Positions 3,290 to 21,003 of a stretch of 64,000 nucleotides of DNA are shown piece after piece (position 1 is the first letter of the stretch; each line of letters starts with the position of its first letter). A model generated the notes under the pieces. That model ran no database searches. It saw nothing but the letters and a program-made list of their open reading frames with translations, and had not been told where the DNA came from. This DNA comes from Stappia stellulata DSM 5886 (lineage in GTDB: Bacteria > Pseudomonadota > Alphaproteobacteria > Rhizobiales > Stappiaceae): assembly GCF_000423705.1 (NCBI RefSeq), contig NZ_AUIM01000010.1, positions 62,001 through 126,000 on the forward strand. Reading direction: 5' to 3'. Position numbers and translations under genes: made by a program.

Positions 3290-4309
3290 GTGACGCACCG
3301 CACAAACGTGAAAAAATTTCCGTGCGACATGCAGGCGTTGTGGTCCGTCGAGCCGGGCCGCATGGCGCTCCGCAGCGGAACCGTCCCCGCGCCGGAGACC
3401 GGAGACGTCTGCGTGCGCGCCCGTTTCAGCGGCGTCAGTCCGGGCACCGAACGGCTGGTTTTGTCCGGCAAGGTGCCCGAAAGCGAATGGAGCCGCATGC
3501 GCGCGCCGTTCCAGGCCGGCGACTTTCCCTTTCCCGTGAAATACGGATATGCCAGCGTCGGCGAGATCGTCGCCGGCGCGCCCGGGCGGCTGGGCGAGAC
3601 CGTCTTCGTGCTCCATCCCCATCAGTCCTTCTACACGGTTCCTGCGGACGCCGCGATTCCGCTGCCCGACGGCGTTCCGGCGGCGCGCGGCATCCTGGCG
3701 GCCAACATGGAAACCGCCCTCAACGGGTTATGGGACGGCGGGGCCTCACCGGGAGATCACATTGCCGTGGTCGGCGGGGGCATCATCGGCCTGCTCGTCG
3801 CATATCTCGCCGCCCGGATCCCCGGCACGCGCGTTACCGTCGTGGATATCGATCCTTCCCGCAAAGCACCTGCGCGCGCGCTCGGCGCCGGTTTCGCGAC
3901 GCCGGAAACCGCACCGCGCGACCAGGATCTCGTCTATCACGCCAGCGGTCACCCGGACGGGCTCGACACCGCGCTTTCCCTGGCGGGGATCGAGGCCTGC
4001 GTCGTGGAGATGAGCTGGTATGGTAGCACGCCCGTCACGGCAACACTTGGCGGCGCCTTCCACAGCCGGCGGCTGACGCTGCGCTCCAGCCAGGTCGGGC
4101 GCGTTCCGCCGCACCGCCAGCCGCGCTGGAGCCATCGGCGACGGCTTGAAACCGCGCTTTCACTTTTGCGTGACCCGGCGCTCGACGCCCTGATTTCAAA
4201 GCCCGTTCCGCTAACGGGGGCGGCGCAGCGCGTTCCCGCCCTGCTCGGCCCCGAGGGCTGCGGGCGAATGCCGCTGATTTCCTACGACACCACGGCGGAT
4301 CGTGACTGA
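3290..4309 (+). CDS. MDR-superfamily (zinc-alcohol-dehydrogenase-like) oxidoreductase
   Basis: A 339-residue medium-chain dehydrogenase/reductase. The N-terminal GroES-like part carries SGVSPGTERLVLSG and a Rossmann domain follows with VVGGGIIGLLVAYLAA (about 160-175) and VTVVDIDPSRK. The usual catalytic-zinc cysteine is replaced by Ser in GVSPGTE, a pattern also seen in BchC-like members, so it is probably zinc-independent or structurally divergent. The GTG start follows GAGGAGGA at short spacing. It heads four same-strand genes with PTPS-like, GT4 and methyltransferase products, separated by 36 bases and then by overlaps, which points to one pathway, probably oxidation or reduction of a small-molecule side chain. 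The substrate is not identifiable from sequence. Confidence 0.8.
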   Translation: MTHRTNVKKFPCDMQALWSVEPGRMALRSGTVPAPETGDVCVRARFSGVSPGTERLVLSGKVPESEWSRMRAPFQAGDFPFPVKYGYASVGEIVAGAPGRLGETVFVLHPHQSFYTVPADAAIPLPDGVPAARGILAANMETALNGLWDGGASPGDHIAVVGGGIIGLLVAYLAARIPGTRVTVVDIDPSRKAPARALGAGFATPETAPRDQDLVYHASGHPDGLDTALSLAGIEACVVEMSWYGSTPVTATLGGAFHSRRLTLRSSQVGRVPPHRQPRWSHRRRLETALSLLRDPALDALISKPVPLTGAAQRVPALLGPEGCGRMPLISYDTTADRD

Positions 4310-4345
4310 CGAGCCGTCTCCCTAGACACTTTCCGGAGAAGTCCC

Positions 4346-4744
4346 ATGCACAGTGTTGAAGTCCGCGACCACATCATGATCGCCCATTCCTTCAAGGGCG
4401 AGGTCTTCGGTCCGGCGCAGAAGATGCACGGCGCCACCTTCGTGGTCGACGCGGCGTTCCGCGCGCGCGATCTCGACGCGAACGGCATCGTCATCGATAT
4501 CGGCCGCGCCCATGAGGTGCTGAAGGAAACGCTGGAACCGCTCAACTTCCAGAACCTCGACGACGTGCCCGAATTCAAGGGCAAGAACACGACGACGGAA
4601 TTCCTCACCCGCCACATCTTCGACAAGCTTGCCGCCGCGGCCCGCGCCGACCGGCTGGGGCGCCCCGGCGCCGAGCTTCATGCGATCCGCGTGACCCTGC
4701 ATGAATCCCATGTGGCGCGGGCCTGGTACGAAGCCGAAATCTGA
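4346..4744 (+). CDS. 6-pyruvoyl-tetrahydropterin synthase/QueD-like protein with altered active site
   Basis: A 132-residue PTPS-fold protein, the usual size for this family. IAHSF (His14), the KMHGATF segment (His28), NTTTEFLTRHIFDKL and a C-terminal VTLHESHVARAWYEAE align with the T-fold of 6-carboxy/pyruvoyl-tetrahydropterin synthases. Compared with E. coli QueD (CGRLHGH), the catalytic Cys is Ala24 and the third zinc His of HGH is Ala30; the His of the LDHHYLN segment is also missing (here LEPLNFQN). Two of three zinc ligands and the late Glu remain. It probably binds a pterin-like ligand but may not run the canonical reaction. Its stop overlaps the next start as TGATG, so translation is probably coupled to the GT4 gene. 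Confidence 0.8.
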   Translation: MHSVEVRDHIMIAHSFKGEVFGPAQKMHGATFVVDAAFRARDLDANGIVIDIGRAHEVLKETLEPLNFQNLDDVPEFKGKNTTTEFLTRHIFDKLAAAARADRLGRPGAELHAIRVTLHESHVARAWYEAEI

Positions 4745-5820
4745 TGAGCGCAGCCGCGTCCGACTTCACCTTTCTTTATCCGGGCGATCTCTCGACCCCG
4801 ACCGGCGGCTATCTCTACGACCGGGAGATGATCGCGGCGCTGGAGAGGGCGGGAGCACGCGTCGAGACGCGCTCGCTCGGCCCCGGATATCCGGCGCCGT
4901 CCCCAAAGGTGCGGGCGCAGGCGCAAGCGACGTTGGCGGCACTGCCGGACGGGCGGCTCACCGTGATCGACGGGCTGGCCTGCGGCGTGATGGCCGAGGA
5001 ACTCGCGCCCCATGCCGCACGGTTGCGGCTCGTTTCGCTTCTGCATCATCCGCTTGGCCATGAAAGCGGACTGGATGACGCGCGTTCATCCGCGCTGCTT
5101 GCTGCGGAACGGGCAGCCCTTGCCCACGTTCGCCATGTCGTGACAACGAGCGCGGCGACGGCGCGCGCCGTGTGCGAGACCTTCGGCGTCGCGGCAAAGG
5201 CCGTCAGCGTCGTGGAACCGGGCGTCGAGATCGACGCGCGCGTCCCTGCGAAAGGGCCGAGAGACGGCGCCGGTCCGCTCCGGCTTCTCAGCGTCGGCTC
5301 GCTGATCCCGCGCAAGGACCATGCGACGCTGCTGGACGCGCTCAGCCGGCTGGGAGATCGCGACCTGCGGCTCGACATCGCCGGAAGCGCCGCGCTCGAT
5401 CCGGACCACGCCGGAGAGATCCGCGCGTTGATCGCGCGGCTCGGGCTTGAAGACAAGGTCACCCTGCATGGCGCGCTGCCGCGCGAGGCACTCGACGCCC
5501 TCTACCGGGCGGCGGATCTCTTCGTGCTGACAACGCTTTACGAGGGCTATGGCATGGCCTTCGTCGAGGCGATGGCCCATGGCCTTCCGGTCGTCGCGAC
5601 GGGAGACGGCGCGGTGCGCGACACGGTCCCGGAAACAGCCGGTATCTTTTTGCCGGTTGGCGACGTCGCGGCGGTCGCCGACGCCCTTGCCCGGCTCGCC
5701 GCCACGCCGCAAGATCGCCATGCGCTGTCGCTGGGCGCGCTTGCGCATGTCGCGCAACTGCCGGACTGGGACGCGCAAGCCGCGCGGTTTATCGACATCT
5801 TGAAAGGCATGGAGCAATGA
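4744..5820 (+). CDS. Glycosyltransferase family 4 (GT-B)
   Basis: A 358-residue retaining GT-B glycosyltransferase. The N-terminal lobe starts FLYPGDLSTPTGGYLYDREM, the sugar-donor lobe starts RLLSVGSLIPRKDHATLLDAL, and the donor site is ADLFVLTTLYEGYGMAFVEA, which contains the E-x7-E pattern of GT4. It has no signal peptide or membrane segment and should be cytoplasmic. Its start shares a base with the PTPS-like stop and its stop overlaps the methyltransferase start (ATGA), so it belongs to the four-gene unit and may glycosylate the product made by the first two enzymes. The sugar donor is unknown. Confidence 0.87.
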   Translation: MSAAASDFTFLYPGDLSTPTGGYLYDREMIAALERAGARVETRSLGPGYPAPSPKVRAQAQATLAALPDGRLTVIDGLACGVMAEELAPHAARLRLVSLLHHPLGHESGLDDARSSALLAAERAALAHVRHVVTTSAATARAVCETFGVAAKAVSVVEPGVEIDARVPAKGPRDGAGPLRLLSVGSLIPRKDHATLLDALSRLGDRDLRLDIAGSAALDPDHAGEIRALIARLGLEDKVTLHGALPREALDALYRAADLFVLTTLYEGYGMAFVEAMAHGLPVVATGDGAVRDTVPETAGIFLPVGDVAAVADALARLAATPQDRHALSLGALAHVAQLPDWDAQAARFIDILKGMEQ

Positions 5821-6632
5821 GCGGATTTTCCGGCGACTGGCTCTCGGCGCGCGAACCCGTCGACCTGCGGGCCCGCAATGCAAAGGTCCGCGATGCCTTT
5901 TTCAATCATCTCGCCGTGCGCAGGAGCTCCGACCCGTCGCGCCCGCTGGCGCTGCTCGATCTCGGCGCGGGCACCGGCGCGACGCTTCGCGCACTCGCCC
6001 CCCATGTCGCGACACCTCAGGCTTGGCGGCTCGCGGAACACGATCCGGCGCTGATCGCACGCGCCCGCACGCTCATGGACGGGCAGGAAATGCCGGTGGA
6101 GATCGTCGAGACGGATCTCGCGACGGGCGTGCCCGAGGCGCTGCTCGACGGCATCGACGGGGTCACCACGTCCGCGTTTCTCGATCTGGTGTCGGCGGGA
6201 TGGATCTCCGCCTTCGCCCGCCAGCTGGCGGCGCACCGGCTGCCGTTCCTGGCGATGCTGACCTATGACGGGCGCCTGTCGCTCGCGCCCGCCGACCCCC
6301 TCGACGAAAGCATCCGCGAGGCAATGAACACGCATCAGCACGGCGACAAGGGGTTCGGCGCAGCACTCGGACCGCAGGCCTCCGATCTCACCCGCGAGGC
6401 GTTTCAGCAGGTGAACTTCCGCGTGGTCGAAGGCCCGTCGGACTGGGAGGCGGAGCGCGGCGAGCAGGCGTTCCAGTCAATGCTGGTCGACGGCTGGGTC
6501 GAGGCCGCCCGGGACATGGCGGTCGATGCCGACAGCCTCGCGCGCTGGCACGAGCGCCGGCGCGGGGAAATCGCCGCGCAGGAGCTCGTCACCCGGGTCG
6601 GGCATCGCGACCTCGCCTGCCTGCCGGTATAG
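5817..6632 (+). CDS. SAM-dependent class I methyltransferase
   Basis: A 271-residue cytoplasmic protein. Motif I, LALLDLGAGTGATLRALAPH (near residues 42-60), is followed by WRLAEHDPALIARA and an acidic strand end; VTTSAFLDLVSAGW and FLAMLTYDGRLSLAP match later class I methyltransferase strands. It closes the MDR/PTPS-like/GT4 operon with a four-base ATGA overlap, so a methyl group is probably added to the same small molecule. The gene ends 11 bases before the convergent thiolase gene; a short inverted repeat (GAAGG/CCTTC) sits between them without a T-run. Confidence 0.82.
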   Translation: MSGFSGDWLSAREPVDLRARNAKVRDAFFNHLAVRRSSDPSRPLALLDLGAGTGATLRALAPHVATPQAWRLAEHDPALIARARTLMDGQEMPVEIVETDLATGVPEALLDGIDGVTTSAFLDLVSAGWISAFARQLAAHRLPFLAMLTYDGRLSLAPADPLDESIREAMNTHQHGDKGFGAALGPQASDLTREAFQQVNFRVVEGPSDWEAERGEQAFQSMLVDGWVEAARDMAVDADSLARWHERRRGEIAAQELVTRVGHRDLACLPV

Positions 6633-6642
6633 CGAGCGAAGG

Positions 6643-7848
<1,206 letters not shown>

Positions 7849-8178
7849 TGCGAAGCCCCTCCCGCGGGCAAACTTTAAACCTAAAGCGTTTTCGGCGACA
7901 AGGGAGGCCGCGTCAACGCCTGACCGGCATTCATTTAATAATTAATCGACCGGACGGTCAATGAATTAGCATCCGGTTTGCCGGCTTTCCCGCGCCGGTC
8001 GGCGCGCCCAGCCTCGCAAATCTGCAAGACCAGGAAAACACACGATTAACCTTATCAAAAACATAACTTCTTTCATTCAACAACTTCAGATATTGTCAAT
8101 ACACTTGTGCGATACGTGATCCATCAAAGCGCAGGCAAGAAAACAAAAAATTCACCTGCCAAGAACAGGAGAAGTGTC
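7849..8178. other. Divergent intergenic region between thiolase and carrier-protein operon
   Basis: This 330-base non-coding stretch is clearly richer in A+T than its surroundings, particularly 8041-8110, and holds the promoters for both divergent units. It contains the inverted repeat at 7948-7959 described separately. The first credible ribosome-binding site on the + strand is AGGAG at 8167-8171. I see no open frame with a start signal inside it. Confidence 0.6.
7948..7959. promoter_or_regulatory. Inverted repeat, possible TetR-family operator
   Basis: GACCGGACGGTC is a 5-bp inverted repeat (GACCG/CGGTC, two-base centre) flanked by A+T-rich sequence, about 90 bases upstream of the thiolase start and 220 upstream of the carrier-protein start. 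Operators of this shape are common for TetR-family repressors of acyl-CoA genes. No regulator gene is adjacent, so the assignment is inference. Confidence 0.3.
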
Positions 8179-8436
8179 ATGTCCGCCGTTGAAGCCATTC
8201 GATCGATTGTCGCAAAACACGGCAAGCTGCCGGTTGATGTCGCGACATTGCAGGACGACGCGGACCTCTATGCGGCCGGTCTGTCCTCCTTTGCCTCGGT
8301 GCAGCTGATGCTCGCCATCGAGGAGCATTTCGATATCGAGTTTCCGGAAGACCGGCTGAACCGCAAGACATTTTCCAGCATCAAGGCGATTACCGAGGTC
8401 GTGACGGAGCTGAGCAAAGATCAGCAGGCCGCATGA
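8179..8436 (+). CDS. Stand-alone acyl/aminoacyl carrier protein
   Basis: An 85-residue acidic helical-bundle carrier protein. The phosphopantetheine site is Ser37 in GLSSFASVQLML, where the usual DSL is replaced by SSF; FDIEFPEDRLNRKTFSSIKA matches the third and fourth helices of ACPs. AGGAG seven bases before the ATG at 8179 fixes the start; the longer in-frame reading from 8107 lacks such a signal. The gene begins a + strand unit with an acyl-CoA dehydrogenase homologue (overlap ATGATGA), an amino acid:[carrier protein] ligase and a DUF1839 gene. It is therefore probably the cognate acceptor: a single amino acid would be loaded as a thioester onto the phosphopantetheine arm rather than a fatty acyl chain. 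Confidence 0.88.
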   Translation: MSAVEAIRSIVAKHGKLPVDVATLQDDADLYAAGLSSFASVQLMLAIEEHFDIEFPEDRLNRKTFSSIKAITEVVTELSKDQQAA

Positions 8437-9617
8437 TGAACATCCACGCCCACGCCCCGAACCTCGAGCTGACAGCACGCGCCCGCCGCGTGGCGGCGGT
8501 GGCCGCAAGCCATGCCGACCACGTCGATCGCGACGGCCGCTTCCCGGCGGAAGCCGTCGAGGCGATGCGCGCGGAACGCCTGATGGGCGTGCAGATCCCG
8601 ACCGATTTCGGCGGCGAGGGCGCATCCACGGCCGAGATCGCCGAACTGTGTTCGATCCTCGGGCAGGCATGTTCCTCCTCCGCGATGGTTTTCGCGATGC
8701 ATCAGATCAAGGTGTCGAGCCTCGTCACCCACGGCGGCGACGATCCCTGGCACCAGGGCTTCATGGCGCGGGTCGCCGGCGAGCAGTTGCTGCTTGGATC
8801 GGCCACCACGGAAGGCGGCATCGGCGGCAACATGCGCAACTCCATTTGCGCCATCGAGGTCGACGGCGACACCTGCCGTCTGGAGAAGAACGCGACCGTG
8901 ATTTCCTATGGCGACCAGGCGGACGCCATCCTGATCACCTCGCGCAGCCACGCCGATGCGGCAGCAAGCGACCAGGTTCTGACCGTTTTTCTCAAGGACC
9001 AGTACACGCTGGAAAAGACACATGTCTGGGACGCGCTCGGCATGCGCGGCACCTGTTCCGACGGCTATGTCTTCAAGGGAGAGGCGCCGGCGGTCCAGAT
9101 CCTGCCGCGCCCCTTTGCCGAGATCGCCGCGCAGTCCATGCTCGCCCACGCCCATATCCTGTGGAGCGCGGTGTGGTACGGGATCGCCGCCGATGCCTTC
9201 GGCCGGGCCCAGGCCTTCGTGCGGGCCGCCGCGCGCAAGTCCCCCGACACGGCACCGCCGGGCGCGCTGCGCGTCGCGGAAGCCTCAAGCCTGCTGCAGG
9301 GCGTCAAGGCCAGCATCGTGGCCGCGCTCGAGATGTATGAGGCAGCGCGCGAGAACGAGGACAAATTGTCGTCCATGAGTTTCTCGGTTGCGATGAACAA
9401 CCTCAAGATCGCCAGCTCGCAGACCGTCCTGACGATCATCAATCACTGCATGCTGATCTGCGGCATCCTGGCCTACAAGAACGGCACCCCGTTCAGCCTC
9501 GGCCGGCATCTGCGCGACGCGCATTCCGCGCAGCTGATGATCTCCAACGACCGCATTCTCGGCAACACGTCGAACATGCTCTTGATCCACAAGCAAGATA
9601 CCAGCCTTCTGGGCTGA
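8433..9617 (+). CDS. Acyl-CoA dehydrogenase-family flavoprotein
   Basis: A 394-residue homologue of FAD acyl-CoA dehydrogenases. The N-terminal helical part has [20 protein letters not shown], the middle beta part has [20 protein letters not shown], and the C-terminal bundle holds [20 protein letters not shown]. The usual C-terminal catalytic Glu segment of fatty-acid enzymes is not evident, so the substrate is probably not an ordinary acyl-CoA. Its start overlaps the carrier-protein stop, implying coupled expression. Family members of this fold oxidise aminoacyl thioesters on carrier proteins (for example prolyl-S-PCP to pyrrolyl-S-PCP), so action on an aminoacyl-S-carrier is an attractive inference here. 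Confidence 0.83.
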
Positions 9618-9633
9618 GGGGAGGAACGGAGCC

Positions 9634-10542
9634 ATGGACATGCAAACGTCCCTGCTCGACCGGCTGTTTTCCGCGGGGCTGCTGATCGACACCGGCGTCG
9701 ACGGGCTGTATGGCCGCGGCGGCGCCTTCGAGGATGTGATCGCGCGCTTCGAGGCGCTGATCGGCAAGCACGCACCGGAGGCAACGCCGGAAGTGATCCG
9801 CTTTCCGCCGGGCATGAACCGGGCCCACTTCGAGGGCTCGGGCTACATGAAGAGCTTCCCGCAGCTCGCCGGCACGGTGCACAGCTTCTGCGGCTGCGAG
9901 CTCGACCACATGAACCTGCTCGAATGCATCGCGGAGGGCGGCGACTGGACGGAAGGGCAAAAGGCGACCGACATCGTGTTGACGCCGGCGGCCTGCTATC
10001 CGCTCTATCCCACGATCGCCAGGCGCGGACCGCTTTCCGAGGGCGGCGGCCTCTACGACCTGCAGTCCTACTGCTTCCGTCACGAGCCGTCGAAGGATCC
10101 GGCGCGCATGCAGCTCTTCCGCATGCGCGAATTCGTGCGCATCGGCACGCCGGACGAGGTGATGGCGTTTCGCGAGGACTGGATGGCGCGCGGCGCGAAG
10201 CTGATCGAGGCCGTCGGTCTCGACGTGGAACTCGACACCGCCAACGACCCGTTCTTCGGGCGCGCGGGCAAGATGATGGGCAACAGCCAGCGCGAACAAA
10301 AGCTCAAGTTCGAGCTGCTGATCCCGGTGACGTCCACCGCCAACAAGACCGCCTGCCTCAGCTTCAACTATCACCAGGACCATTTCGGCTCCACCTGGGG
10401 GCTTGAGACCGCCGACGGCGAGGTTGCCCATACCGCCTGCGTCGGCTTCGGCCTGGAACGGATCGCGCTTGCGCTCTTTGCCAAGCACGGGCTGGACACC
10501 GCGGACTGGCCGGCGCCCGTGCGCGCCGCGCTTTGGGGCTGA
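9634..10542 (+). CDS. Amino acid:[carrier protein] ligase (class II aaRS-like)
   Basis: A 302-residue truncated homologue of atypical seryl-tRNA synthetases that activates an amino acid with ATP and transfers it to a carrier-protein phosphopantetheine instead of tRNA. Class II motif 2 is [20 protein letters not shown] and motif 3 is [12 protein letters not shown] (Arg276). Zinc ligands are placed as in the characterised Bradyrhizobium enzyme: Cys121 (TPAACYP), Glu166 (RMREF) and Cys269 (HTACVGFG), with spacing equal to Cys131/Glu176/Cys279 there. The tRNA-binding N-terminal arm is absent, typical of this family. GAGGGGAGGA precedes the ATG. Known members charge glycine or alanine; which one applies here cannot be read from the sequence with confidence. 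Confidence 0.92.
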
Positions 10543-10556
10543 CGGGGCGTTGCACC

Positions 10557-11573
10557 ATGTTTGAAACCCTCGCCGCCCTCGATCCGCAGAGCTACACCCC
10601 GCATCCCCTGCATGACGCGGAACGCATCTGGCCGGAAACCAACTGCTACATCGACCTGTGGATCGAAACGCTCAAGGCGCTGGATCTGGAGCCTGAAGCC
10701 ATGCTCGGCTTCACGCTCACCCAGGATTTCGAGGGCGACCAGTTCACCTTCTTCAAGGTGCCGCTGGAAGACCTCGAGACGCTTTACGGCATCCGCGCCC
10801 AGGAACTGGCGATCTACGAAGCGGCGGAACGCCATGTCGCGACCCAGATCGCGCGCGGACGGCTGTGCCTCGTCGAGGTCGACAGCTACTTCCTGCCGGA
10901 CACGCCGGGCGTCAGCTATCGCATCGAACACGGCAAGACGACCGTCGCGATCACCGCGCTCGACGTGGAGGCCCGCACGATGCACTACTTCCACAACGGC
11001 GGCTTCTTCGCGCTGGAGGGCGAGGATTTCGACGGCGTGTTCCAGCGTGGCGACCATGCGCAGGCCCTGCCCTTTCTGCCCTATACCGAATTCGCCAAGT
11101 TCCCGGCCAAGGCTCCCACGCCCGAGGCGCGCCGCGCCGAGGCGCTCAGGCTTCTGACGGTTCATTACGACCGTCGCCCGGCTGCCAATCCCTTCACGTC
11201 TTACGCCACGGGGTTCGCCGCCGACATCGAGGCGCTCTCCGAGCGGCCCTTCGACGTCTTTCACAAATACGCCTTCAACACGCTGCGTCAGGCGGGCGCG
11301 AATTTCGAGCTGGCGGCGACCCATCTCGACTGGCTGGCGCTGGACGGCCCCCTTGCCGGACCGGCGGAGGCGGCGCGCGAGATCGCAACGACCTGCAAGA
11401 GCCTGCAGTTCCAGCTCGCCCGCGCGCTGGCACGCAAAAAATTCGCCGGGCTCGGCGACGGGCTTCTCCCGGCCGCCCACGCCTGGGACCGGCTGATGAG
11501 CGACCTCGGTCCGGCCCTTGCCCGTTTGTCGGCGGACCGTCCAAAGACGCATTCGGGCATCCGCGCGGCCTGA
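10557..11573 (+). CDS. DUF1839-family protein
   Basis: A 338-residue soluble protein of a family found beside amino acid:[carrier protein] ligase genes in rhizobia-related bacteria. It starts MFETLAALDPQ and contains NCYIDLWIETLKALDLEPEA near residues 30-50 and a conserved RLCLVEVDSYFLPDTPGVSY segment. The latter resembles the Glu-Val-Asp-Ser entry into a papain-like or transferase site, but this is only a resemblance. The C-terminal half is helical. The gene lies 14 bases after the ligase stop and 26 bases before the GH2 gene. Being next to an aminoacylated carrier it may be the transferase that unloads the amino acid; there is no experimental basis in the sequence for that. Confidence 0.82.
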   Translation: MFETLAALDPQSYTPHPLHDAERIWPETNCYIDLWIETLKALDLEPEAMLGFTLTQDFEGDQFTFFKVPLEDLETLYGIRAQELAIYEAAERHVATQIARGRLCLVEVDSYFLPDTPGVSYRIEHGKTTVAITALDVEARTMHYFHNGGFFALEGEDFDGVFQRGDHAQALPFLPYTEFAKFPAKAPTPEARRAEALRLLTVHYDRRPAANPFTSYATGFAADIEALSERPFDVFHKYAFNTLRQAGANFELAATHLDWLALDGPLAGPAEAAREIATTCKSLQFQLARALARKKFAGLGDGLLPAAHAWDRLMSDLGPALARLSADRPKTHSGIRAA

Positions 11574-11599
11574 GCCTGCGGCGTGACTTGAGAGTTCCC

Positions 11600-14083
11600 A
11601 TGATCGATCCCTGCCTTATCGCCCCCTCGGACGACCTGCTCGCCGGGGTCGACTGGGACATGACCGTGACCGAGGCAAGCGCCTGGGCAACGCCGGCCGA
11701 CTGCAACGTCGACAGCGACTGGCATCCGGCCGCCGTGCCCGGAACGGCCGCGGGCGCACTCGCCGACGCCGGGCTTTTTTCGCTCGACGCGCCCGTGCCG
11801 CTGCATGACCGCGACGTGTGGTATCTCGCCCATGTCGAGGTTCCCGGGCCCGGTGCCTACCGGCTGATCGCACCGGGGCTTGCGACTGTCTGCGAAGCCT
11901 GGTTCGACGGCCAGCCCGTGCTGATTTCCGACAGCATGTACGCCCGCCACGAGATCCGGCTCGATCTCGACGGCCCGGGCGATCTCATGCTGTGCTTCCG
12001 CGCCCTCGCGCCGCATCTGGAGCGCAAGGGACCGCGCGCGCGGTGGCGCACGCAGCTTGCCGGCCATCCGGGCCTGCGATTGATGCGCACGACCCTGCTT
12101 GGCCACATGCCCGGCTGGTGTCCCGACGTCCATGCCGTCGGCCCCTGGCGCGGCCTGCATCTCGTCGCCGAAACAGCCGTGCGCATCGAGGACTTGCGCA
12201 TCGAGGCCACGCTCGGCGAGGACGGCACAGGCCGGCTCAGGGTTGCCCTGCGGCTGCCGGGCGAAACCGGGGACACGCCCAGCCTGAATTGTGCCGGCTG
12301 GGACGCACCGCTGGACAAGGGCGACAACGGCCTGTGGTCGGCCGACATGCTCCTGCCCGGCATCGAGGCCTGGTGGCCGCACACCCATGGCACGCCGCAT
12401 CTGCACGCGCTGACGCTGCGCACGGCGTTGGGGGAAATCGCGCTGGGGCGCACCGGGTTTCGCCGCATCGAGGTCGACCCGGGCGCGGATGGGAACGGCT
12501 TCGCGCTCAGGATCAACGGCGAGCGGGTGTTCTGCCGCGGCGCGGTCTGGACAAATGCCGACATCCTGCGGCTGCCGTCGAGCCGCGAAAGCTACCGCCC
12601 CTGGCTGGAGCGCGCGCGCGACGCCCATATGAACATGCTGAGGATCGGCGGCACGATGGCGCCGGAAGCCCCGGCCTTCCACCAGCTTTGCGACGAACTC
12701 GGCATTCTGGTCTGGCAGGATCTGCCCTTCGCGAATTTCGATTATCCGGCAAAGGACCCGGACTTCATCGCCACCGTGGGCGACGAAACGCGCGATCACC
12801 TGCGCGCGACGCAGTCTTCGCCGAGCCTCGCCGTCGTGTGCGGCGGCAGCGAGATGTACCAGCAGGCCGCGATGCTCGGGCTTCCCGAAAGCCGCTGGCG
12901 CGGGCCGCTGACGGAGGAAATCCTGCCCGCAGCCGTCAAGGAGATCCGCCCCGACGTCGCCTATGTGCCGAATTCGCCGCACGGCGGGGCGATGCCGTTT
13001 TCTCCCGATGCCGGGATTGCGCATTACTACGGCGTTGGCGCCTATCTGCGCCCGCTCGAAGACGCACGGCGCGCCGACGTGCGTTTTGCCGCCGAATGCC
13101 TCGCCTTTTCCAATACCCCCGACGGCGATCCGCAAAGCATGCCAGGCGGAAACGCGCCCGGCCACGATCCGGCCTGGAAGAACGGCGTCCCGCGCGACCG
13201 GGGTGTCGGCTGGGATTTCGAGGATGTGCGGGACCACTATGTCGAGGCGCTCTACGACGTATCGCCCGCGAACCTGCGCCACGGCGACCCGCAGTCCTGG
13301 CTCGACCACGGGCGAGCCGCGGTCGCCGAGGTGATGGAGGCGACGTTTGCCGAATGGCGCCGCCCCGGATCGAATTGCGCCGGGGCACTGGTGTGGACCT
13401 TCCAGGACCTCGCGCCCGGCGCCGGATGGGGCGTGGTCGCTCACGACGGGCGGCCGAAATCCGCCTGGTATGGGTTGAAGCGGGCTTTCAGGCCCGTGGC
13501 GGTCTCTGTCACCGACGAGGGCACCAACGGCCTCGCAATCCATGTGGTGAACGAGACGGCGGAAAACCGGACGCTACGCCTCGACCTCGCCTGCCTGCGC
13601 GACGGCCGGCTGGCGGTTGCCACCGGCGAGAGCGATTTGGTGCTCGCCCCGCGCGAGGCGCGCACGCTTTCCGCCACCGACCTGATCGGCGCGTTTTTCG
13701 ATGTGACATATGCCTTCCGCTTCGGCCCGCCCTCGCATGATTGCGCGCATGTGCGGCTGAGCGACGGCAACGGCACCTCGCTGGACGAGGCGTTTCATTT
13801 TCCGCTCGGACGAAGCAAAACCGCCAGAGGCGCGATGCTGTCGGTGGCGATGGACCGCGACGACGACGGAACCGATGTGCTGGTGCTGGAAACGGACCGC
13901 GTGGCACAGTCCGTCTGCGTCGACGACGACGCCTTCGAAGCGCAGGACAGCTGGTTCCATCTTGCCCCCGGGCAGGCGAAGCGGGTCAGGCTGGTCCGGC
14001 GGCCCGGCAGCGATGCAACCGCCCGCCCCTCCGGCCTCGTGCGTGCGCTGAACAGCGACGCGGTCGCCTATTCCGCCGCCTGA
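11600..14083 (+). CDS. Glycoside hydrolase family 2-like protein (beta-mannosidase type)
   Basis: An 827-residue enzyme with GH2 architecture: an N-terminal jelly roll (WHPAAVPGTAAGALADAG, RDVWYLAHVEV), an immunoglobulin-like domain, and a TIM barrel with FALRINGERVFCRGAVWTNAD, LGILVWQDLPFANFDYP and CGGSEMYQQ. Glu418 in GGSEMYQ is at the acid/base position (commonly NE in this family, here SE), and Glu499 in FAAECLAFSN is the nucleophile candidate. No signal peptide is seen, so it should act in the cytoplasm. It starts 26 bases after DUF1839 and probably shares its transcript. The gene runs 16 bases into the convergent hydrolase gene. It may trim or remodel a glycan or glycoside made with this locus; the substrate is unknown. 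Confidence 0.82.
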   Translation: MIDPCLIAPSDDLLAGVDWDMTVTEASAWATPADCNVDSDWHPAAVPGTAAGALADAGLFSLDAPVPLHDRDVWYLAHVEVPGPGAYRLIAPGLATVCEAWFDGQPVLISDSMYARHEIRLDLDGPGDLMLCFRALAPHLERKGPRARWRTQLAGHPGLRLMRTTLLGHMPGWCPDVHAVGPWRGLHLVAETAVRIEDLRIEATLGEDGTGRLRVALRLPGETGDTPSLNCAGWDAPLDKGDNGLWSADMLLPGIEAWWPHTHGTPHLHALTLRTALGEIALGRTGFRRIEVDPGADGNGFALRINGERVFCRGAVWTNADILRLPSSRESYRPWLERARDAHMNMLRIGGTMAPEAPAFHQLCDELGILVWQDLPFANFDYPAKDPDFIATVGDETRDHLRATQSSPSLAVVCGGSEMYQQAAMLGLPESRWRGPLTEEILPAAVKEIRPDVAYVPNSPHGGAMPFSPDAGIAHYYGVGAYLRPLEDARRADVRFAAECLAFSNTPDGDPQSMPGGNAPGHDPAWKNGVPRDRGVGWDFEDVRDHYVEALYDVSPANLRHGDPQSWLDHGRAAVAEVMEATFAEWRRPGSNCAGALVWTFQDLAPGAGWGVVAHDGRPKSAWYGLKRAFRPVAVSVTDEGTNGLAIHVVNETAENRTLRLDLACLRDGRLAVATGESDLVLAPREARTLSATDLIGAFFDVTYAFRFGPPSHDCAHVRLSDGNGTSLDEAFHFPLGRSKTARGAMLSVAMDRDDDGTDVLVLETDRVAQSVCVDDDAFEAQDSWFHLAPGQAKRVRLVRRPGSDATARPSGLVRALNSDAVAYSAA

Positions 14084-15867
14084 CGGGTCGCCGCATCCTC
14101 GGCGACGGCCGCCAACGCCAGCAGATCGACAAGCTCCGCGCGCGCCGCACGCTGCGTCAGATTGTGATCGGCATCGGTCAGCTCGATCACCGCGAGATTG
14201 GGATAGGAAACGCGTCGGCGCAGGTCCTTGCCGAAGAAAACCGGTAGCTGCGCCAGCCCCGGATCGCCGTCGCTGAAGACAAGCGTCACATCCGTGCCCC
14301 GGTCGCGAAGCGTCGCCAGATTGGCATGGACCCTGGCGTAGAGCCTGGAAAAGGGCGCAAGGCCGAAAAGCCAGGGCGCGAAGTCGCGCTCGGCGCGGCG
14401 AAACCCGCGCCTCAGCAGCGAGCGTAGCAACGCGAAGGCATTGGTCCGGCCGCTGAGGATCCGTCTCCACTTCTCCGCGCTCAGCATCTTGCGTCCGTAG
14501 TCGACCGCCGAGGTATGGCCGAAACGCAGCACCTCCGCCACATCGTCGCGCGGATCCCAGAGGAACCGCTGAAGGTTGACCGCGACGACCTTGCGCACGC
14601 GAGGGTCCGCCACCGCCCCGTTCAGCGCCAGATAGGCCCCGCTGCAGGTGCCGGTGACGACGGCGCCGGCCGCAAACCCCTTGGCAGCGACCACATCGAG
14701 CGCAGCGCGCAGGTCGGCAAGCTGGCTCGGGTGATAATGCACGATCTGCGGCCCGCCGGCCTGGGGCCGGCTGTCGCCGATATCGGCGAGATCGATGCGC
14801 AGCGAGGCGATGCCACGGGCGGCCAGCGTCCGGGCGGCCTCGACCGCGCCGTGCGCCCAGCCGGCACGCGGTGTCGCGCCGGAATTCAGAAAAACGACCG
14901 GTCGTGCGCCCGGCAGGCGCTCGTCCGGCTCGCACCAGACGCCGATCAGGCCACCTTGTGCGCCGAAAGCGACGGAGGCCTCGCGCGCGCGCCCGGCGAG
15001 CTCAAGGAGGGGAGCATCCGGCGACACGCCCGACACGCGGCATGTCCGCGGCGGAACGGTGCGCACCAGCCAGCCGACCAGCCGGTCGAAATCGGCCTGC
15101 GGACAAAGCGAGGCCGTCGGATCGCTCATGAGATCGTCATAGCCGGCGAAGACATGCAATTCGCCCGTCGCGCCGGCGGAGGCCGCCTTGCCGAAGGCTT
15201 CCTCCACCGCCTTGTCCGGGCGATGCGCAACAAAGGCCGGCGGCAGATCCGCCCGCCCGGCGCGGCCGGAGACATCGAGGGCGCGAATGTCGGCAGCGAC
15301 TTGTTCGCCGAGCCCGAGTCCGCCGAAGGAGAGCCTTTCGCCCGGCGCAGGATCCGGCGCCGCGCCCGTGATCTCGCCGATCATCGCCGCGCGTGCCTGA
15401 AGCTCGCGCAGATAGGTCCGCCCCTTCACCACGGGGGCGAGCAGGGCAAGCGCTGCGGCGCGCTGGCGCCCGTCCGCCACCGCCGTCAGGGCAAGCGTCG
15501 CGCCGAGGCCAAGGCCGACCAGAACGATCTCCTCCACCCCGGACCTCTCGCGCAAGACGGCGCAGGCCGCATCCAGCGTCGCCTCGTAACAGGCAAGACC
15601 CTCGACCTCCGCGGCCGTTTCCGCCGCGTCCCCCGTGCCCGGCCAGTCGAAGCGAAGGACCGGATAGCCCGCCGCCGCAAGCTGGTCGGCCAGAATGCGC
15701 AGGGAGCGACGCGCGCACAGATCCTCATATCCCCAGGGGCCCGCGATCACGACGCCGACCGCCCCTTGGGCCGGGTGCAGAACCGCAAACGTGCCGGCGA
15801 GGGAAACGGGCACAAGGGCCGCCTCCCCTCCGACGGACCGCCCGGATGTCAGCTCGCTCGACGTCAT
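14068..15867 (-). CDS. Tandem alpha/beta-hydrolase protein of a polysaccharide locus
   Basis: A 599-residue protein with two alpha/beta-hydrolase domains, about residues 20-270 and 300-590. Domain one has GPWGYEDLCARRSLRILADQ and DWPGTGD, but its nucleophile elbow reads GLGLG with Gly120 where Ser should be. Domain two has LNSGATPRAGWAHGA, RIDLADIGDS, the elbow GTCSG with Cys408 as nucleophile candidate, an Asp in VFSDGDPG and a His in LTDADHNLTQ. Such proteins are often encoded with exopolysaccharide/exosortase-type clusters. It overlaps the convergent GH2 gene and is followed downstream by no further gene on its strand. A cytoplasmic esterase or acyltransferase acting on polysaccharide precursors is likely, with domain one structural only. 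Confidence 0.75.
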   Translation of the reverse strand: MTSSELTSGRSVGGEAALVPVSLAGTFAVLHPAQGAVGVVIAGPWGYEDLCARRSLRILADQLAAAGYPVLRFDWPGTGDAAETAAEVEGLACYEATLDAACAVLRERSGVEEIVLVGLGLGATLALTAVADGRQRAAALALLAPVVKGRTYLRELQARAAMIGEITGAAPDPAPGERLSFGGLGLGEQVAADIRALDVSGRAGRADLPPAFVAHRPDKAVEEAFGKAASAGATGELHVFAGYDDLMSDPTASLCPQADFDRLVGWLVRTVPPRTCRVSGVSPDAPLLELAGRAREASVAFGAQGGLIGVWCEPDERLPGARPVVFLNSGATPRAGWAHGAVEAARTLAARGIASLRIDLADIGDSRPQAGGPQIVHYHPSQLADLRAALDVVAAKGFAAGAVVTGTCSGAYLALNGAVADPRVRKVVAVNLQRFLWDPRDDVAEVLRFGHTSAVDYGRKMLSAEKWRRILSGRTNAFALLRSLLRRGFRRAERDFAPWLFGLAPFSRLYARVHANLATLRDRGTDVTLVFSDGDPGLAQLPVFFGKDLRRRVSYPNLAVIELTDADHNLTQRAARAELVDLLALAAVAEDAATRQAAE

Positions 15868-15877
15868 GGGTCCATCC

Positions 15878-16933
15878 TCATGGCCGCGCGAGCGCCGGGC
15901 AAGCCGTTTCCGCCGGCGTGCGGCGGGCGATCAGGCGCGAAATCGCCACCATCTGCGGACGGTCCAGACCGTCTTCGGGTTGTACCGACAGGGGATAATC
16001 GCCCCACCAGTCGCCCGCGGCCCAGATCGTCCAGCCCGCCCAGACGTCCGGCCGCGCGTTGAGATAACCGACCATGCGCACAAGCCCTTCATAGCAATCG
16101 GGGCGGGCGTGGCCGCCGAACTCGCCGAGGAAAGCCGCATTGCCGGTCTGTTCCAGCCATTTTGTCAACCGCTCGATGGCGGTCATCGCATCATCGACGC
16201 GGCTGCAGGCGGTCTTGGTTCCGGAAAAATCGTCATCCATGTACTGGTGCACGTCGAAGACGAACCGGTCGAGCGGATCGACAACACCCTTCAGCACCTC
16301 GGCGTTGGAGCCGCCGGGCTGTTCGTCGAACCAGTGCGACGCGCCGGTCCAGATCGTGCCCGGCACCATCACCAGGTTGCCGGCGCCGGCCTCCCGGATC
16401 GCCGCGATGGCCGCGTTGACCGAGGGCAGCCAGTCGCGCGCGGCAATATGGGCCGGCTCGTTCATCAGCAGGAAGACAACATCCTCGCGGTCCCCGTAGC
16501 GCGATGCCAGCCGGCGCCAGAAATCGGCGAACGCCGAGACGGGCACGGCGTCGCTGCCAACGAAGCCACCGCGATACTTCGCGTAATTGTGGGGATCGAG
16601 AATGACGGTGAGGCCCATGCCGGTTGCCGCGGTGACGGTCTCGTCGAGCAGCGCCAGCTCCGCCTTCGCAAGCGGAGCGTCGAGTTTCGGCTGAAGACGT
16701 TCCCAGCGAAACGGCAGACGTACCGCGTTCATGCCCTTGGCGCGCAAATAGGCAAGCGTTGCCCGCGCGGGATAGATGTAGGTCTTGGCGTGAACGCCCG
16801 GCAGATCGCCGAATTCGGCGCCCGCCACATTCGCCCCGCGCAGGCAGTCCGCGCGCGCCGTCGTCACGGGCATTGCGAGCGCCAGGACGAGGGCGAGCTT
16901 GACGGCCCGCCTCCACTGGTCAGGAGCGCGCAT
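15878..16933 (-). CDS. Secreted glycoside hydrolase family 5 (endoglucanase-like)
   Basis: A 351-residue GH5 enzyme. A signal peptide (residues 1-28, basic start then VKLALVLALAMPVTTARA) sends it to the periplasm or outside. Family motifs are NAVRLPFRWERLQP, ILDPHNYAKY, Glu159 in FLLMNEPAH (acid/base), FDVHQYMDDDFSG and Glu271 in AAFLGEFGG (nucleophile), followed by the barrel-closing WAGWTIWAAGDWWG. Bacterial polysaccharide loci often carry such a glucanase to trim or release polymer. It overlaps the end of the flippase gene by 14 bases and lies 10 bases before the tandem hydrolase gene, making one minus-strand unit. Confidence 0.9.
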   Translation of the reverse strand: MRAPDQWRRAVKLALVLALAMPVTTARADCLRGANVAGAEFGDLPGVHAKTYIYPARATLAYLRAKGMNAVRLPFRWERLQPKLDAPLAKAELALLDETVTAATGMGLTVILDPHNYAKYRGGFVGSDAVPVSAFADFWRRLASRYGDREDVVFLLMNEPAHIAARDWLPSVNAAIAAIREAGAGNLVMVPGTIWTGASHWFDEQPGGSNAEVLKGVVDPLDRFVFDVHQYMDDDFSGTKTACSRVDDAMTAIERLTKWLEQTGNAAFLGEFGGHARPDCYEGLVRMVGYLNARPDVWAGWTIWAAGDWWGDYPLSVQPEDGLDRPQMVAISRLIARRTPAETACPALARP

Positions 16934-18311
16934 GCGACCCCTCCCCGCCGACCTTCAGGCCGGGCGCGTTTCCGCCATCGCCGCCGCCGCGATTGCGCCA
17001 TATCCCCAGAATCGCAGTCGCCATGTTGTCGACCTGCCAGGTCCGCATGACCCAGCGGCGCGACAGCAGATGCACGATCACCAGCTGCGCCCAACCGGCG
17101 ATGGCAACCCCGTCGAGACCGAACTGCCGTCCCAGAACATAGAGCAGGCCGAGGTAGACGACGAAGACAATGCTGCGCATGCGCAGAAGATAGGATTCAC
17201 CGCCACCGATCATCGTCAGCCAGGTGCCGGGTCCGAAGAAGGCGTGACTGATCGCCGCCAGCGACAAGAGCACGAGAACGTCGAAGTGCTCGACGAATGC
17301 GGGATCGAACAGATGCAGGATGAAGGGACCGAGGAAATAGAGCATCACGCCGCCGATGGCCGCCAGCGCGAAGCTTCCGGCCGACAGCATCGCCACCAGC
17401 TTCTGCGCACCGGGACGGTCGTTTTCCTGGAACTTCGCCGAGATCAGCGGAATGCCGACCGTGTCGATGGCGAGCACCGGCAGGGTCAGCAGCATCGCGA
17501 TCCGATAGGCGACGAAATAGAAGGCGGCAACCTCCAGCCCGATGGCGATGCCGATGAGGATCGTTTCCAGATAGGACGACGCGGCGTTGAAGAAACCATT
17601 GGCGCTGAAATTGAGCGTTTCCGCGTTCCAGCGCCGCCAGGGCACGACCTGGCCCCTTGCCGCGCGCCGGGACAGAAAGGCGAGCCCCTCGTGCTTGACG
17701 AAGGAGATCGCCTGAAACCCGACCGTCAGCACCAGCAGGCCGGTCACGATCTCCGTCGCCGCCGCGCCACTCACGAGAAGGCCCGCATAGGCGAGTGCCG
17801 GAAGCGTGACCGCCGTCAACAGTCGCCACAGGTTCTCGCGCGGCACGAGGGCCATCACGATCCGCCCGTGGATGCGGAAATAGTTCTGGAGATATTCGCT
17901 CACCGTGAAGACCGCGCCGAACAAAAACGCGATCGGCAGCGAATCATACGGGGCCGACAGCCGCGCGGAGAAGATCCAGACCGACATAGCCGCCAGAAGC
18001 TGGATGCCAATCCCGAAGCCAAGCCACAGCGCGTTCACACGCAACAGCGCCTGATTGGTTTCGCCGGGCACGTGATCCTTCAAACGGAAGTGCTTTACCA
18101 GCAGCACCGGCTGCCCCAGGACAAAGATCAATCCGAGCGAGGTGCCGACCGAAAACAGGAAGATGTAAAGGCCGTATTCGGCGGTATCCAGCGCGTGGCT
18201 GGCCCCGAACAGTGCCGCGAAACTGAGCACCGTGCTGCCGAAACGGCTGAACAGCGACCAGAACAGCCGCTTGATGTTCCCGCGCGCGGCGAGCGCCAGA
18301 AGCCGCTTCAT
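16920..18311 (-). CDS. Polysaccharide (Wzx-like) flippase
   Basis: A 463-residue integral membrane protein of the MATE/MVF oligosaccharide-flippase superfamily with 12 or more hydrophobic segments. It starts MKRLLALAARGNIKRLFWSL and shows the early pattern SRFGSTVLSFAALFGASHAL DTAEYG typical of Wzx proteins. It would turn undecaprenyl-linked repeat units over the inner membrane. The ATG at 18311 overlaps the preceding GT4 stop (ATGA), and reading further upstream is only the shadow of that gene. The product length fits the family. Confidence 0.88.
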   Translation of the reverse strand: MKRLLALAARGNIKRLFWSLFSRFGSTVLSFAALFGASHALDTAEYGLYIFLFSVGTSLGLIFVLGQPVLLVKHFRLKDHVPGETNQALLRVNALWLGFGIGIQLLAAMSVWIFSARLSAPYDSLPIAFLFGAVFTVSEYLQNYFRIHGRIVMALVPRENLWRLLTAVTLPALAYAGLLVSGAAATEIVTGLLVLTVGFQAISFVKHEGLAFLSRRAARGQVVPWRRWNAETLNFSANGFFNAASSYLETILIGIAIGLEVAAFYFVAYRIAMLLTLPVLAIDTVGIPLISAKFQENDRPGAQKLVAMLSAGSFALAAIGGVMLYFLGPFILHLFDPAFVEHFDVLVLLSLAAISHAFFGPGTWLTMIGGGESYLLRMRSIVFVVYLGLLYVLGRQFGLDGVAIAGWAQLVIVHLLSRRWVMRTWQVDNMATAILGIWRNRGGGDGGNAPGLKVGGEGSHARS

Positions 18312-19534
18312 CTGGATGCCTCCCGCACGTCCCGACGCGTCGCCCCCCCGTGGCGCTCCAGCGTGCGGGAAAGGGCGCTTTCCAGGATCGAGCACACCGC
18401 TGGTTCGAGATAGTCCGCGGCCGCCTCGAGCGCACCCTTCGACAGCCGCGCGTAAAGATCCGGCGATGCGGCGATCCGCTCGATGCAGGCCGCGAGGGCG
18501 GCCGCGTCGCCGGCCGCGGCATGGTAGCCGTTGACACCATCCGCAATATTTTCCGCAACACCGCCGATGTCGGTCGAGATCACCGGCACGGCGTGCGAGA
18601 ACGCCTCGATCGTCGCCCGCCCGAACGCCTCGCGGCCGATGGTCGGATAGACCAGAAGGTCGACCTGCGGAAAGAATTCGGCCGGCGTCGTCCATCCGAG
18701 AAAGCGTGTGCGGTTCACCGGAAACAGCGCCCGAGTTTCCTCCGCGAAGCTGTCGCGGCCGGTGCCGCCGATGACGAATTCGACATTGCCCTGCGCGGAC
18801 AAAAGGCGCGCCGCCTCCGCGAGCACGCCAAACCCCTTGAACCGGGTCTGGACGCCGAGAAACCCGACGCGCAACGGTCGGTCGGCGGGAAGGCTGCGCG
18901 GCGCGTCGGCGTGCACCGCGTCGATCACCGCGGGAACCCGATAGGCGGCCGCGCGGGGGAAATAGCCCTCGTCGAGATGCCGCTGCACGATGTCCCGCGA
19001 TTCGCCGATCACGGCATCGACGAGACGTGAAAATTGCCGGCGACCGAAGGACCCGGCATAGCAGCTGGCGCACTGGGCCGGGCAGTTCTTCCCGTCGCGC
19101 TGCATGACGCCGTTCCAGCACATCATGAAGGCGCTGAAGATCGTGTGCGCGACCGGGATGCCGGCCGCGCGCGCGGCCGCCCAGGAGGCGACATTGATGT
19201 TTTCGATGCTGACCGTCAGCATGATGTCGGGTCGGAAATCGGAAATCTCCCGCCGCATTGCAAGAAAGGCGCGCGGGTTGCCGTTCTCGAGCGCGTGCCA
19301 GACGAGCTTCTTCCAGGCCGGACGGGAGGTGTAATAGTTCCAGTAGATGTTGAGACTGCGGATGCGGTGGACGGGAACGCCCTCGTAGATCTCGTGCCGG
19401 TCGTCCTCGCCGACATTGACAACGCGCACGTCATGGCCGGCCGCAACCAGCATCTTCGCCAGCAACAGGGAAGAGATCGGCCCTCCCCCGTCGGCAAAGG
19501 GCGGGAAAGCGGCACAGGGCATCAAAATGCGCAT
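18308..19534 (-). CDS. Glycosyltransferase family 4
   Basis: A 408-residue GT-B enzyme. The N-terminal lobe has MRILMPCAAFPPFADGGGP, and the donor lobe has RVGFLGVQTRFKGFGVLAEA and LLVYPTIGREAFGRATIEAF with the GT4 Glu pattern. An unusual Cys cluster, NCPAQCASCYAGSFGRRQF (about residues 152-170), resembles one in sugar transferases that have a small metal-site loop. ATG 19534 is preferred because MRILMPC is the usual GT4 opening; a TTG at 19567 in the same frame would add 11 residues. It is the first gene of the minus-strand flippase/GH5/hydrolase unit and probably assembles the repeat unit on its lipid carrier. Confidence 0.86.
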   Translation of the reverse strand: MRILMPCAAFPPFADGGGPISSLLLAKMLVAAGHDVRVVNVGEDDRHEIYEGVPVHRIRSLNIYWNYYTSRPAWKKLVWHALENGNPRAFLAMRREISDFRPDIMLTVSIENINVASWAAARAAGIPVAHTIFSAFMMCWNGVMQRDGKNCPAQCASCYAGSFGRRQFSRLVDAVIGESRDIVQRHLDEGYFPRAAAYRVPAVIDAVHADAPRSLPADRPLRVGFLGVQTRFKGFGVLAEAARLLSAQGNVEFVIGGTGRDSFAEETRALFPVNRTRFLGWTTPAEFFPQVDLLVYPTIGREAFGRATIEAFSHAVPVISTDIGGVAENIADGVNGYHAAAGDAAALAACIERIAASPDLYARLSKGALEAAADYLEPAVCSILESALSRTLERHGGATRRDVREASR

Positions 19535-20995: not shown

Positions 20996-21003
20996 GGGCG
21001 GCG

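Follow-up and report, generated by a model that had tools for sequence, protein, structure and literature searches.

We analysed a 64,000-nucleotide window of the genome of Stappia stellulata DSM 5886 (NZ_AUIM01000010.1, positions 62,001–126,000, forward strand) and found that it carries an operon of five genes on the + strand, among them one for an amino acid:[carrier protein] ligase. The operon begins with a carrier protein of 85 amino acids (8179–8436; PF00550 and NF005480), followed by a 394-amino-acid homologue of the acyl-CoA-dehydrogenase (ACAD)-fold flavoenzymes (8433–9617; PF02771 and PF00441). The third gene encodes the ligase, a protein of 302 amino acids with the core of a class II aminoacyl-tRNA synthetase (aaRS) (9634–10542; NF005479, 3mey and 4h2w). 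A DUF1839 protein of 338 amino acids comes next, which we predict to be an aminoacyl transferase (10557–11573; PF08893, structural model and Foldseek), and the last gene encodes an 827-amino-acid beta-mannosidase-like glycoside hydrolase of the GH2 family (11600–14083; PF22666 and beta-mannosidase structures). The carrier and ACAD-homologue genes share 4 bases; 16 bases separate the ACAD homologue from the ligase and 14 bases the ligase from DUF1839, and GH2 starts 26 bases 3' of DUF1839. A preliminary description of this DNA had placed the first four genes in one operon, which we confirm as a tight one, but it overlooked GH2, so that the set comprises five genes rather than four.

The same gene set recurs widely. 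We confirmed at least 589 relatives and analysed the best 80 loci, which are the closest relatives and which reduce to 17 after dereplication at 87% ligase identity. In 80 of 80, the genes for the carrier, ACAD homologue, ligase, DUF1839 and GH2 lie in the same order on one strand, with median intergenic gaps of −4, 5, 8 and 16 bases; this fixed five-gene order is far beyond chance. Loci of Agrobacterium tumefaciens, for example L046, share this set of five. All five were also found by profile in 13 of 14 further operon loci of the same ligase type (L129, L130, L132, L133, L142–L148, L193 and L194), the exception being L191, in which GH2 had no match. In a profile search, the S. stellulata genome contained one ligase match and one DUF1839 match. 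Among 121 genomes sampled from the order, the ligase scored over the cut-off in 20 and gave any match in 24, and DUF1839 was present in 14, each time beside the ligase. A phylum sample of 398 genomes had DUF1839 in 16, with the ligase at most 126 bases from one copy in each, so that across both samples (4 genomes shared) DUF1839 stood beside the ligase in 26 of 26 genomes that carry it. Spacing and conservation suggest that the five genes are co-transcribed. A consensus scan of 7849–14300 returned 0 promoter-like sites and 9 terminator-like sites against 4.0 expected, and the only one of the latter on the + strand falls inside GH2; the scan therefore does not bear on co-transcription. One of the 80 loci (L109, 8576–14333) holds the five-gene operon with its dehydrogenase and DUF1839 genes in broken reading frames.

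Consistent with a role in carrier loading, the ligase scored 506.2 bits on NF005479 (cut-off 357) and matched the structures of Bll0957 (3mey, E 2.5e-96; 4h2w, E 4.1e-99). Its Cys121, Glu166 and Cys269 align without gaps with identical residues in the Bll0957 chains, in the columns of the zinc ligands of Bll0957, and they are invariant in 17 of 17 aligned ligases, including that of the window, and in 80 of 80 best loci. In an alignment of 24 ligases, 8 of them diverged, every sequence kept this Cys/Glu/Cys set together with the arginines of class II motifs 2 and 3, which likewise share their columns with the Bll0957 chains and are kept in 17 of 17. Models of seryl-tRNA synthetase (SerRS) matched the catalytic core only (residues 111/115–298 against 306/312–503), and thus the ligase lacks the N-terminal tRNA-binding arm. 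Both the missing arm and the zinc-ligand spacing had been noted in the preliminary description and stand. The carrier matched PF00550 (E 8e-9) and NF005480 (119.9 bits; cut-off 72), and its Ser37, the predicted site of phosphopantetheine attachment, is present in 80 of 80 best loci. The proposed loading step is supported by homology to a crystallised ligase family. For amino acid:[carrier protein] ligases, a published table lists glycine, alanine and serine (PMC9437257).

The DUF1839 protein scored 422.6 bits on PF08893 (cut-off 22.5). An AlphaFold model built from 18 aligned sequences (pLDDT 87.0, pTM 0.88) has a papain-like fold with additional C-terminal helices, and Cys30 lies at the start of a helix. 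When we searched the Protein Data Bank (PDB) with this model using Foldseek, all 15 matches with E ≤0.001 were to AziU3/U2, CtaG or CcbD (E 4.3e-7 to 8.1e-4, prob 1.00), over 325–377 alignment columns including gaps for a protein of 338 residues. CcbD links proline, bound to its carrier, with an amino sugar as an amide through a ping-pong mechanism that uses Cys, His and Glu (PMC12945683), and CtaG is described as a peptidyl transferase that acts between carriers (PMC6772006). DUF1839 shares with CcbD/LmbD of lincosamide synthetase and with CtaG of closthioamide synthesis the fold over most of its length, a cysteine at the start of the core helix and an adjacent carrier. BtrH_N (PF14399) did not match the DUF1839 protein of the window at E 0.01 and was found in 0 of the 61 genomes in which it was sought. 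Because sequence-profile similarity is lacking, we describe DUF1839 as working like CcbD and CtaG rather than as a member of their family. A classification from 2023 places DUF1839 in the papain-like superfamily and suggests, from genomic context, a part in cell-wall glycan processing (PMC10318531). Cys30 is conserved in 79 of 80 best loci, the exception being the locus with broken reading frames.

The fate of Cys30 in duplicated copies was informative. We sampled 150 genomes of a family of the same phylum as the window but another class (f109, perhaps the Burkholderiaceae). DUF1839 occurred in 60 of them, in 85 copies, of which 60 had Cys30 and 25 did not. Thirty-two genomes had a single copy, with Cys30 and beside the ligase. 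In another 11, the ligase-adjacent copy had Cys30 and a second, Cys-less copy lay elsewhere, and in 10 of the 60 the ligase-adjacent copy had lost Cys30 (to Gln or Arg) while another copy retained it. One genome had three copies (two with the cysteine) and two genomes had two Cys-bearing copies. The remaining single copies, Cys-less in three genomes and Cys-bearing in one, had no ligase beside them. The ligase scored over the cut-off in 56 of the 60 genomes, and at least one Cys30 copy was kept in 56 of 56; of the 4 genomes without such a ligase, 3 had a Cys-less copy only. The association between Cys30 and ligase presence gave a Fisher p of about 1e-4, calculated by hand on genomes that are related to each other. 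Replacement of His146 was confined to two single copies that also lack the cysteine. This pattern indicates that the pathway needs one Cys-bearing copy of DUF1839 and that a Cys-less partner can exist. The two kinds of copy possibly form a catalytic/non-catalytic pair, which recalls AziU3/U2 among the fold matches. L127, L128 and L133 (7446–8360 and 12271–13191) represent the genomes in which Cys30 is lost beside the ligase and kept in a second copy. We had also considered the rule that DUF1839 never occurs without the ligase and rejected it on the 4 genomes of the 60 without a ligase over the cut-off; in one of these (G910) a diverged ligase scored 113.6 bits. Together, the fold of carrier-dependent amide synthases and the conservation and loss pattern of Cys30 support the transfer step that had been suggested for DUF1839 from the first reading of the sequence.

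The oxidation step required more revision. The ACAD homologue scored above the cut-offs of PF02771 (47.8 bits) and PF00441 (25.3 bits), which agrees with the fold assumed in the preliminary description, but the dehydrogenation with a −2 Da shift expected there is now the weaker variant. ACADs have their catalytic glutamate at one of two positions, those of medium-chain acyl-CoA dehydrogenase and of isovaleryl-CoA dehydrogenase. The window protein has Ile370 in the common base column and Ala240 in the alternative, isovaleryl-type column. None of the 17 aligned ACAD homologues has a glutamate at either position, and in 80 of 80 best loci the columns hold Ile or Val at 370 and Ser, Ala or Cys at 240. 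As controls we took 20 loci of the 21 PF02771 matches in the same genome and aligned the 8 proteins that matched the ACAD-homologue profile; 7 of these 8 have a glutamate at one of the two positions, and the best-scoring one (L159) has it at neither. A true dehydrogenase, with a dehydroalanyl or imino product, would fit the ACAD fold, the matches to FadE16, SfnB, and short-chain and butyryl-CoA dehydrogenases, and the L-prolyl-carrier dehydrogenases that share this fold, although NF045652 reached 29.5 bits, far under its cut-off of 650. Dehydrogenation is doubtful, however, because the glutamate is missing at both known positions, and glycine has no beta-carbon to desaturate; we consider this activity unlikely. 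Searching the PDB with the ACAD-homologue profile gave the nitrososynthase DnmZ as the best match (62.1 bits, E 4.8e-16), next to a short-chain dehydrogenase at 61.4 bits, with KijD3 and an ORF36-type nitrososynthase also matched. In a Foldseek search with a model of the protein (pLDDT 80.4), TdsC/DszC, KijD3 and DnmZ were intermixed with dehydrogenases. A plain desaturase is thus disfavoured by the sequence, and it is plausible that oxygenation of the aminoacyl group is the more likely reaction.

GH2, the gene added to the set, matched PF22666 and beta-mannosidase structures (E 1e-71 to 1e-76). In an alignment with a beta-mannosidase, its Glu418 and Glu499 fall on the glutamates of the NNE and SE motifs, the acid/base and the nucleophile, respectively, and both are present in 18 of 18 aligned rows and in 79 of 80 best loci, with one locus gapped. 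By eye, we saw no signal peptide at the N terminus of GH2, and the enzyme should therefore act in the cytosol.

Downstream of the operon lies an exopolysaccharide locus (15878–26532, both strands; Pfam and NCBIfam scans). It comprises, on the − strand, a GH5 protein (15878–16933), a flippase-like protein (about 16920–18308; assigned by eye from sequence and place) and a GT4 glycosyltransferase (18308–19567); on the + strand, a polysaccharide deacetylase (19772–20995) and a second GT4 protein (about 20995–22176; named from a scanned relative, L070); on the − strand, a Wzy- or O-antigen-ligase-like protein (22140–23474; by eye from sequence and place, with no Pfam match) and Wzz (23455–25521); and, on the + strand, a WecG/TagA/CpsF glycosyltransferase (25747–26532). 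Between the operon and this locus, a fused alpha/beta-hydrolase pair (14068–15867, − strand; Hydrolase_4) resembles hydrolases 2 and 1 of exosortase-A polysaccharide clusters, with 96.4 bits on TIGR03100 and 71.6 bits on TIGR03101, both under the cut-off. We dropped the link to exosortase because the genome had no exosortase match.

We then asked how constant this context is by using nine proteins of this region as queries (E ≤1e-15, over 40% of the query) and setting aside L034–L036, which have the window's own neighbourhood. At least one exopolysaccharide-locus match lay near 59 of 77 best loci and near 8 of 10 further DUF1839 loci. By contrast, the controls gave 0 of 20 for 20-kb stretches of the S. 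stellulata genome and 0 of 7 for loci with a ligase but no DUF1839. The neighbours among the 77 loci were the fused hydrolase pair (56), GT4c (34), Wzz (10), GH5 (9) and Wzy (6). The deacetylase gene was matched near only 3 of the 80 best operons, and for that reason we do not claim it as a general source of a free amine on the acceptor. Three upstream families (5, 6 and 7; 42, 41 and 40 of the best 80 loci) are a lysine-aminomutase-type radical SAM protein, a class II synthetase and EF-P; conserved near about half of the loci, they were regarded as chromosomal neighbours and not counted as part of the module. Upstream of the operon in the window, a + strand cluster at 3290–6632 encodes a BchC-like dehydrogenase, a 6-pyruvoyl-tetrahydropterin-synthase-like protein, a GT4 glycosyltransferase and a methyltransferase. 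It is conserved in the near relatives L034–L036 and in part in L142 and L143, and perhaps makes a glycosylated pterin.

From these data we propose, with somewhat better than even confidence, that the five-gene operon is a tRNA-independent module for the aminoacylation of a surface polysaccharide that would load, oxidise and transfer an amino acid. The ligase would make the aminoacyl-AMP of a small amino acid, for which precedent in the family points to glycine or alanine, and load it onto the phosphopantetheine of carrier Ser37, as its strong homology suggests. The ACAD-fold flavoenzyme may then oxidise the carrier-bound amino acid, by N- or alpha-oxygenation in preference to desaturation given the missing base, a step that we put forward tentatively. 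DUF1839, a predicted papain-fold transferase like CcbD and CtaG, would take the acyl group on Cys30, as its fold and residue pattern indicate, and would form an amide by passing it on to a sugar that the exopolysaccharide locus makes, at an amine (or hydroxyl) group; this choice of acceptor is our inference. GH2 might trim or proofread a cytosolic glycan, as acceptor or product, and its part is the least clear. It is also conceivable that the loaded carrier senses free amino acid, in regulation or storage, and that DUF1839 only hydrolyses the thioester as an editing enzyme, a reaction that papain-fold enzymes can perform. The constant presence of GH2, the frequent polysaccharide context and the transferase activity of CcbD and CtaG make such a role very improbable.

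Several observations weigh against the aminoacylation module. The fold matches of DUF1839 have 11–14% identity, TM-scores of 0.50–0.58 by query length and a root-mean-square deviation of 5.8–8.0, and a search of the PDB with the DUF1839 profile gave one chance-level match and none to CcbD, CtaG or another relevant entry. All 80 best loci have His125 as well as His146, so that conservation does not single out the catalytic histidine; one Cys-bearing copy (L246) lacks His125, and an unusual C-(T/S)-H triad is proposed for DUF1839 in the published model (PMC10318531). In f109, the counts of Cys30 are not independent events because genomes within the family are related, and one genome (G1017) has a Cys-bearing DUF1839 and no ligase. 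Matches of the ACAD homologue to dehydrogenases and to oxygenases are about equal. With the queries used, 18 of the 77 operons had no exopolysaccharide match, two of them on short contigs, and only 1 of 4 f109 loci had one, even though Wzc, a ManC-type protein and a bacterial sugar transferase are encoded at L133.

To place the window operon within its family, we compared it with ligases in other neighbourhoods. In six genomes of the order sample that have the ligase and no DUF1839, the ligase is 46–52% identical to that of the window, versus 63–80% for the DUF1839 type. As in the window operon, an ACAD homologue is present at all six loci and a carrier, in diverged form, at 5 of 6; unlike in the window operon, neither DUF1839 nor GH2 nor polysaccharide proteins of the window type lie near these ligases, which carry another motif in the helix that follows DPFFGR. 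Bll0957-type ligases of Bradyrhizobium belong to the same family as the window ligase, with the same zinc-ligand columns, and by this motif Bll0957 would group with the DUF1839-less ligases. The loci of this clade are L134–L139 and L195; L134, L137 and L138 have an AMP-binding ligase, a short-chain dehydrogenase/reductase and a thiamine-pyrophosphate enzyme nearby (scanned in L134, by shared families in the others). In two genomes of one family, the ligase belongs to the DUF1839-side clade and is accompanied by a carrier (L192, 9532–10781; L196, 9391–10227, where the carrier reads in two frames), and no ACAD homologue, DUF1839 or GH2 was found by profile at either locus.

More diverged ligases turned up in other surroundings. 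A class sample of 385 genomes contained ligase matches in 19, above the cut-off in 10, and further diverged matches were seen in G029, G032, G551 and G656. We examined ten loci with below-cut-off ligases together with their surroundings (L140, L141, L185–L190, L197 and L198), of which L197 and L198 had partial ligase matches only. At five of them an MBOAT gene lies beside the ligase and carrier in operons that resemble Dlt (L140, 7914–10996; L141, 4346–8728; L185, 5828–10618; L186, about 6499–10800 on the − strand; and L188, about 8700–13009; L185 and L188 are from one genome). The ligases of these operons, which are aaRS-derived and occupy the position that DltA has in Dlt, scored 133–164 bits on NF005479 and retain the zinc-ligand residues. 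Pfam identified the MBOAT protein of L141, and the WHG and FWxRWH motifs are present at all five loci; L140 and L141 match our MBOAT profile by construction, as it was made from them. An SGNH-like protein at the five loci was recognised by motif only, and Pfam found none. These pairings would favour a Dlt- or AlmG-like logic for the window operon too, in which DUF1839 is an O-acyltransferase and the amino acid is joined to glycan hydroxyls by an ester. Of the 20 proteins of the window that were scanned with Pfam, however, none matched MBOAT, and the fold relatives CcbD and CtaG form amide or peptide bonds, which makes an ester link quite improbable and an amide the product we prefer for DUF1839.

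Two other loci, from one genus (L187, 7873–11287; L189, 8372–11672), combine an AurF-type N-oxygenase, a carrier, a diverged ligase and a nitronate monooxygenase in one operon, identified by Pfam in L189 and by the same reading frames in L187; their gene content suggests N-oxidation of a carrier-bound amino acid. This bears on the possibility that the window operon makes a small diffusible natural product, in which the carrier-bound amino acid would be N-oxygenated and then released or joined to a small amine, much as in pathways of the azoxy, nitro or lincosamide type, with the polysaccharide genes incidental. The nitrososynthases among the profile matches of the ACAD homologue point the same way, as do the natural-product pathways served by CcbD, CtaG and AziU3. 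Set against this are the GH2 gene in every one of the best 80 loci, the exopolysaccharide proteins near most of them, and the absence of an exporter or regulator among the five operon proteins, and we regard a natural product as rather unlikely. At a further locus (L190, 5629–13958), the neighbours of a diverged ligase and carrier include a hexapeptide transferase, a PIG-L de-N-acetylase and a methyltransferase, perhaps an O-antigen-like cluster. In a maximum-likelihood tree of 33 ligase rows (32 different), the ligases grouped by type of neighbourhood, with 5 changes for 6 types, which is the minimum; support for the DUF1839 group was weak (53/47), the MBOAT type needs two changes, and the long branches make the deep order unreliable. 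It is tempting to view class II aaRS-core carrier ligases as a general tRNA-free front end for the decoration of surface glycans, with interchangeable back ends and with N-oxidising versions that use an ACAD-fold flavoenzyme or AurF, but we hold this broader idea as doubtful. The back ends would be DUF1839 as a CcbD-like cytosolic amide synthase, the MBOAT–SGNH pair of the five loci and the sugar cluster with the PIG-L deacetylase of the single locus, and the N-oxidising versions would put an N-oxidised amino acid on a polysaccharide. We know of no such decoration, nor of any description of MBOAT-, AurF- or PIG-L-linked ligase operons, and no MBOAT-linked amino acid:[carrier protein] ligase was found in the open-licence literature searched.

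The aminoacylation module proposed here has precedents. A note added in proof in 2010 listed neighbourhoods of these ligases with a carrier, a redox enzyme, a conserved uncharacterised protein (Atu2574 in Agrobacterium), a glycosidase and genes for polysaccharides; it predicted that the aminoacyl group is monooxygenated and is joined to an amino sugar by an amide (PMC2922099). The window operon, with the same kind of gene set and the same predicted logic, thus belongs to a kind already noted, and from gene order Atu2574 would be the DUF1839 protein. The preliminary description had stated that the use of the loaded amino acid is undescribed. This is correct in that no biochemistry and no published test of the purpose of the gene set were found in the open-licence literature searched; it is incorrect in that the 2010 note had already predicted a use. 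That prediction was drawn from gene neighbourhood, to which we add the CcbD/CtaG fold match, the loss pattern of Cys30, the missing base of the ACAD homologue and counts with controls. CcbD acts on an amino sugar in an antibiotic context, whereas the window operon has a class II aaRS-like activating enzyme and a polysaccharide context; no adenylation (A) or condensation (C) domain of a nonribosomal peptide synthetase was found in the 20 Pfam-scanned window proteins (of 49 open reading frames picked). The working logic is also that of Dlt, which D-alanylates teichoic acid, and AlmEFG, which glycylates lipid A: in both, a dedicated ligase charges a small carrier with one amino acid, which a transferase then moves to a surface glycan (PMC12930378). 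The window operon differs from them in its aaRS-derived ligase and in its extra flavoenzyme and GH2.

New here are the structural and evolutionary evidence for the transfer step, the corrected oxidation step, the constant position of the fifth gene, and Dlt-like and N-oxygenase neighbourhoods as additional settings of the ligase family. Through the CcbD-like fold of DUF1839, the pattern of its Cys30 and the constant set of five genes, what used to be a guess from gene neighbourhood becomes a testable order of reactions with named residues. If the proposal is true, bacteria would have a further route, besides the Dlt and Alm ligases, for placing amino acids on surface glycans, by way of a recycled translation enzyme, and this would matter for the charge and adhesion of rhizobia and related bacteria and for their contact with hosts.

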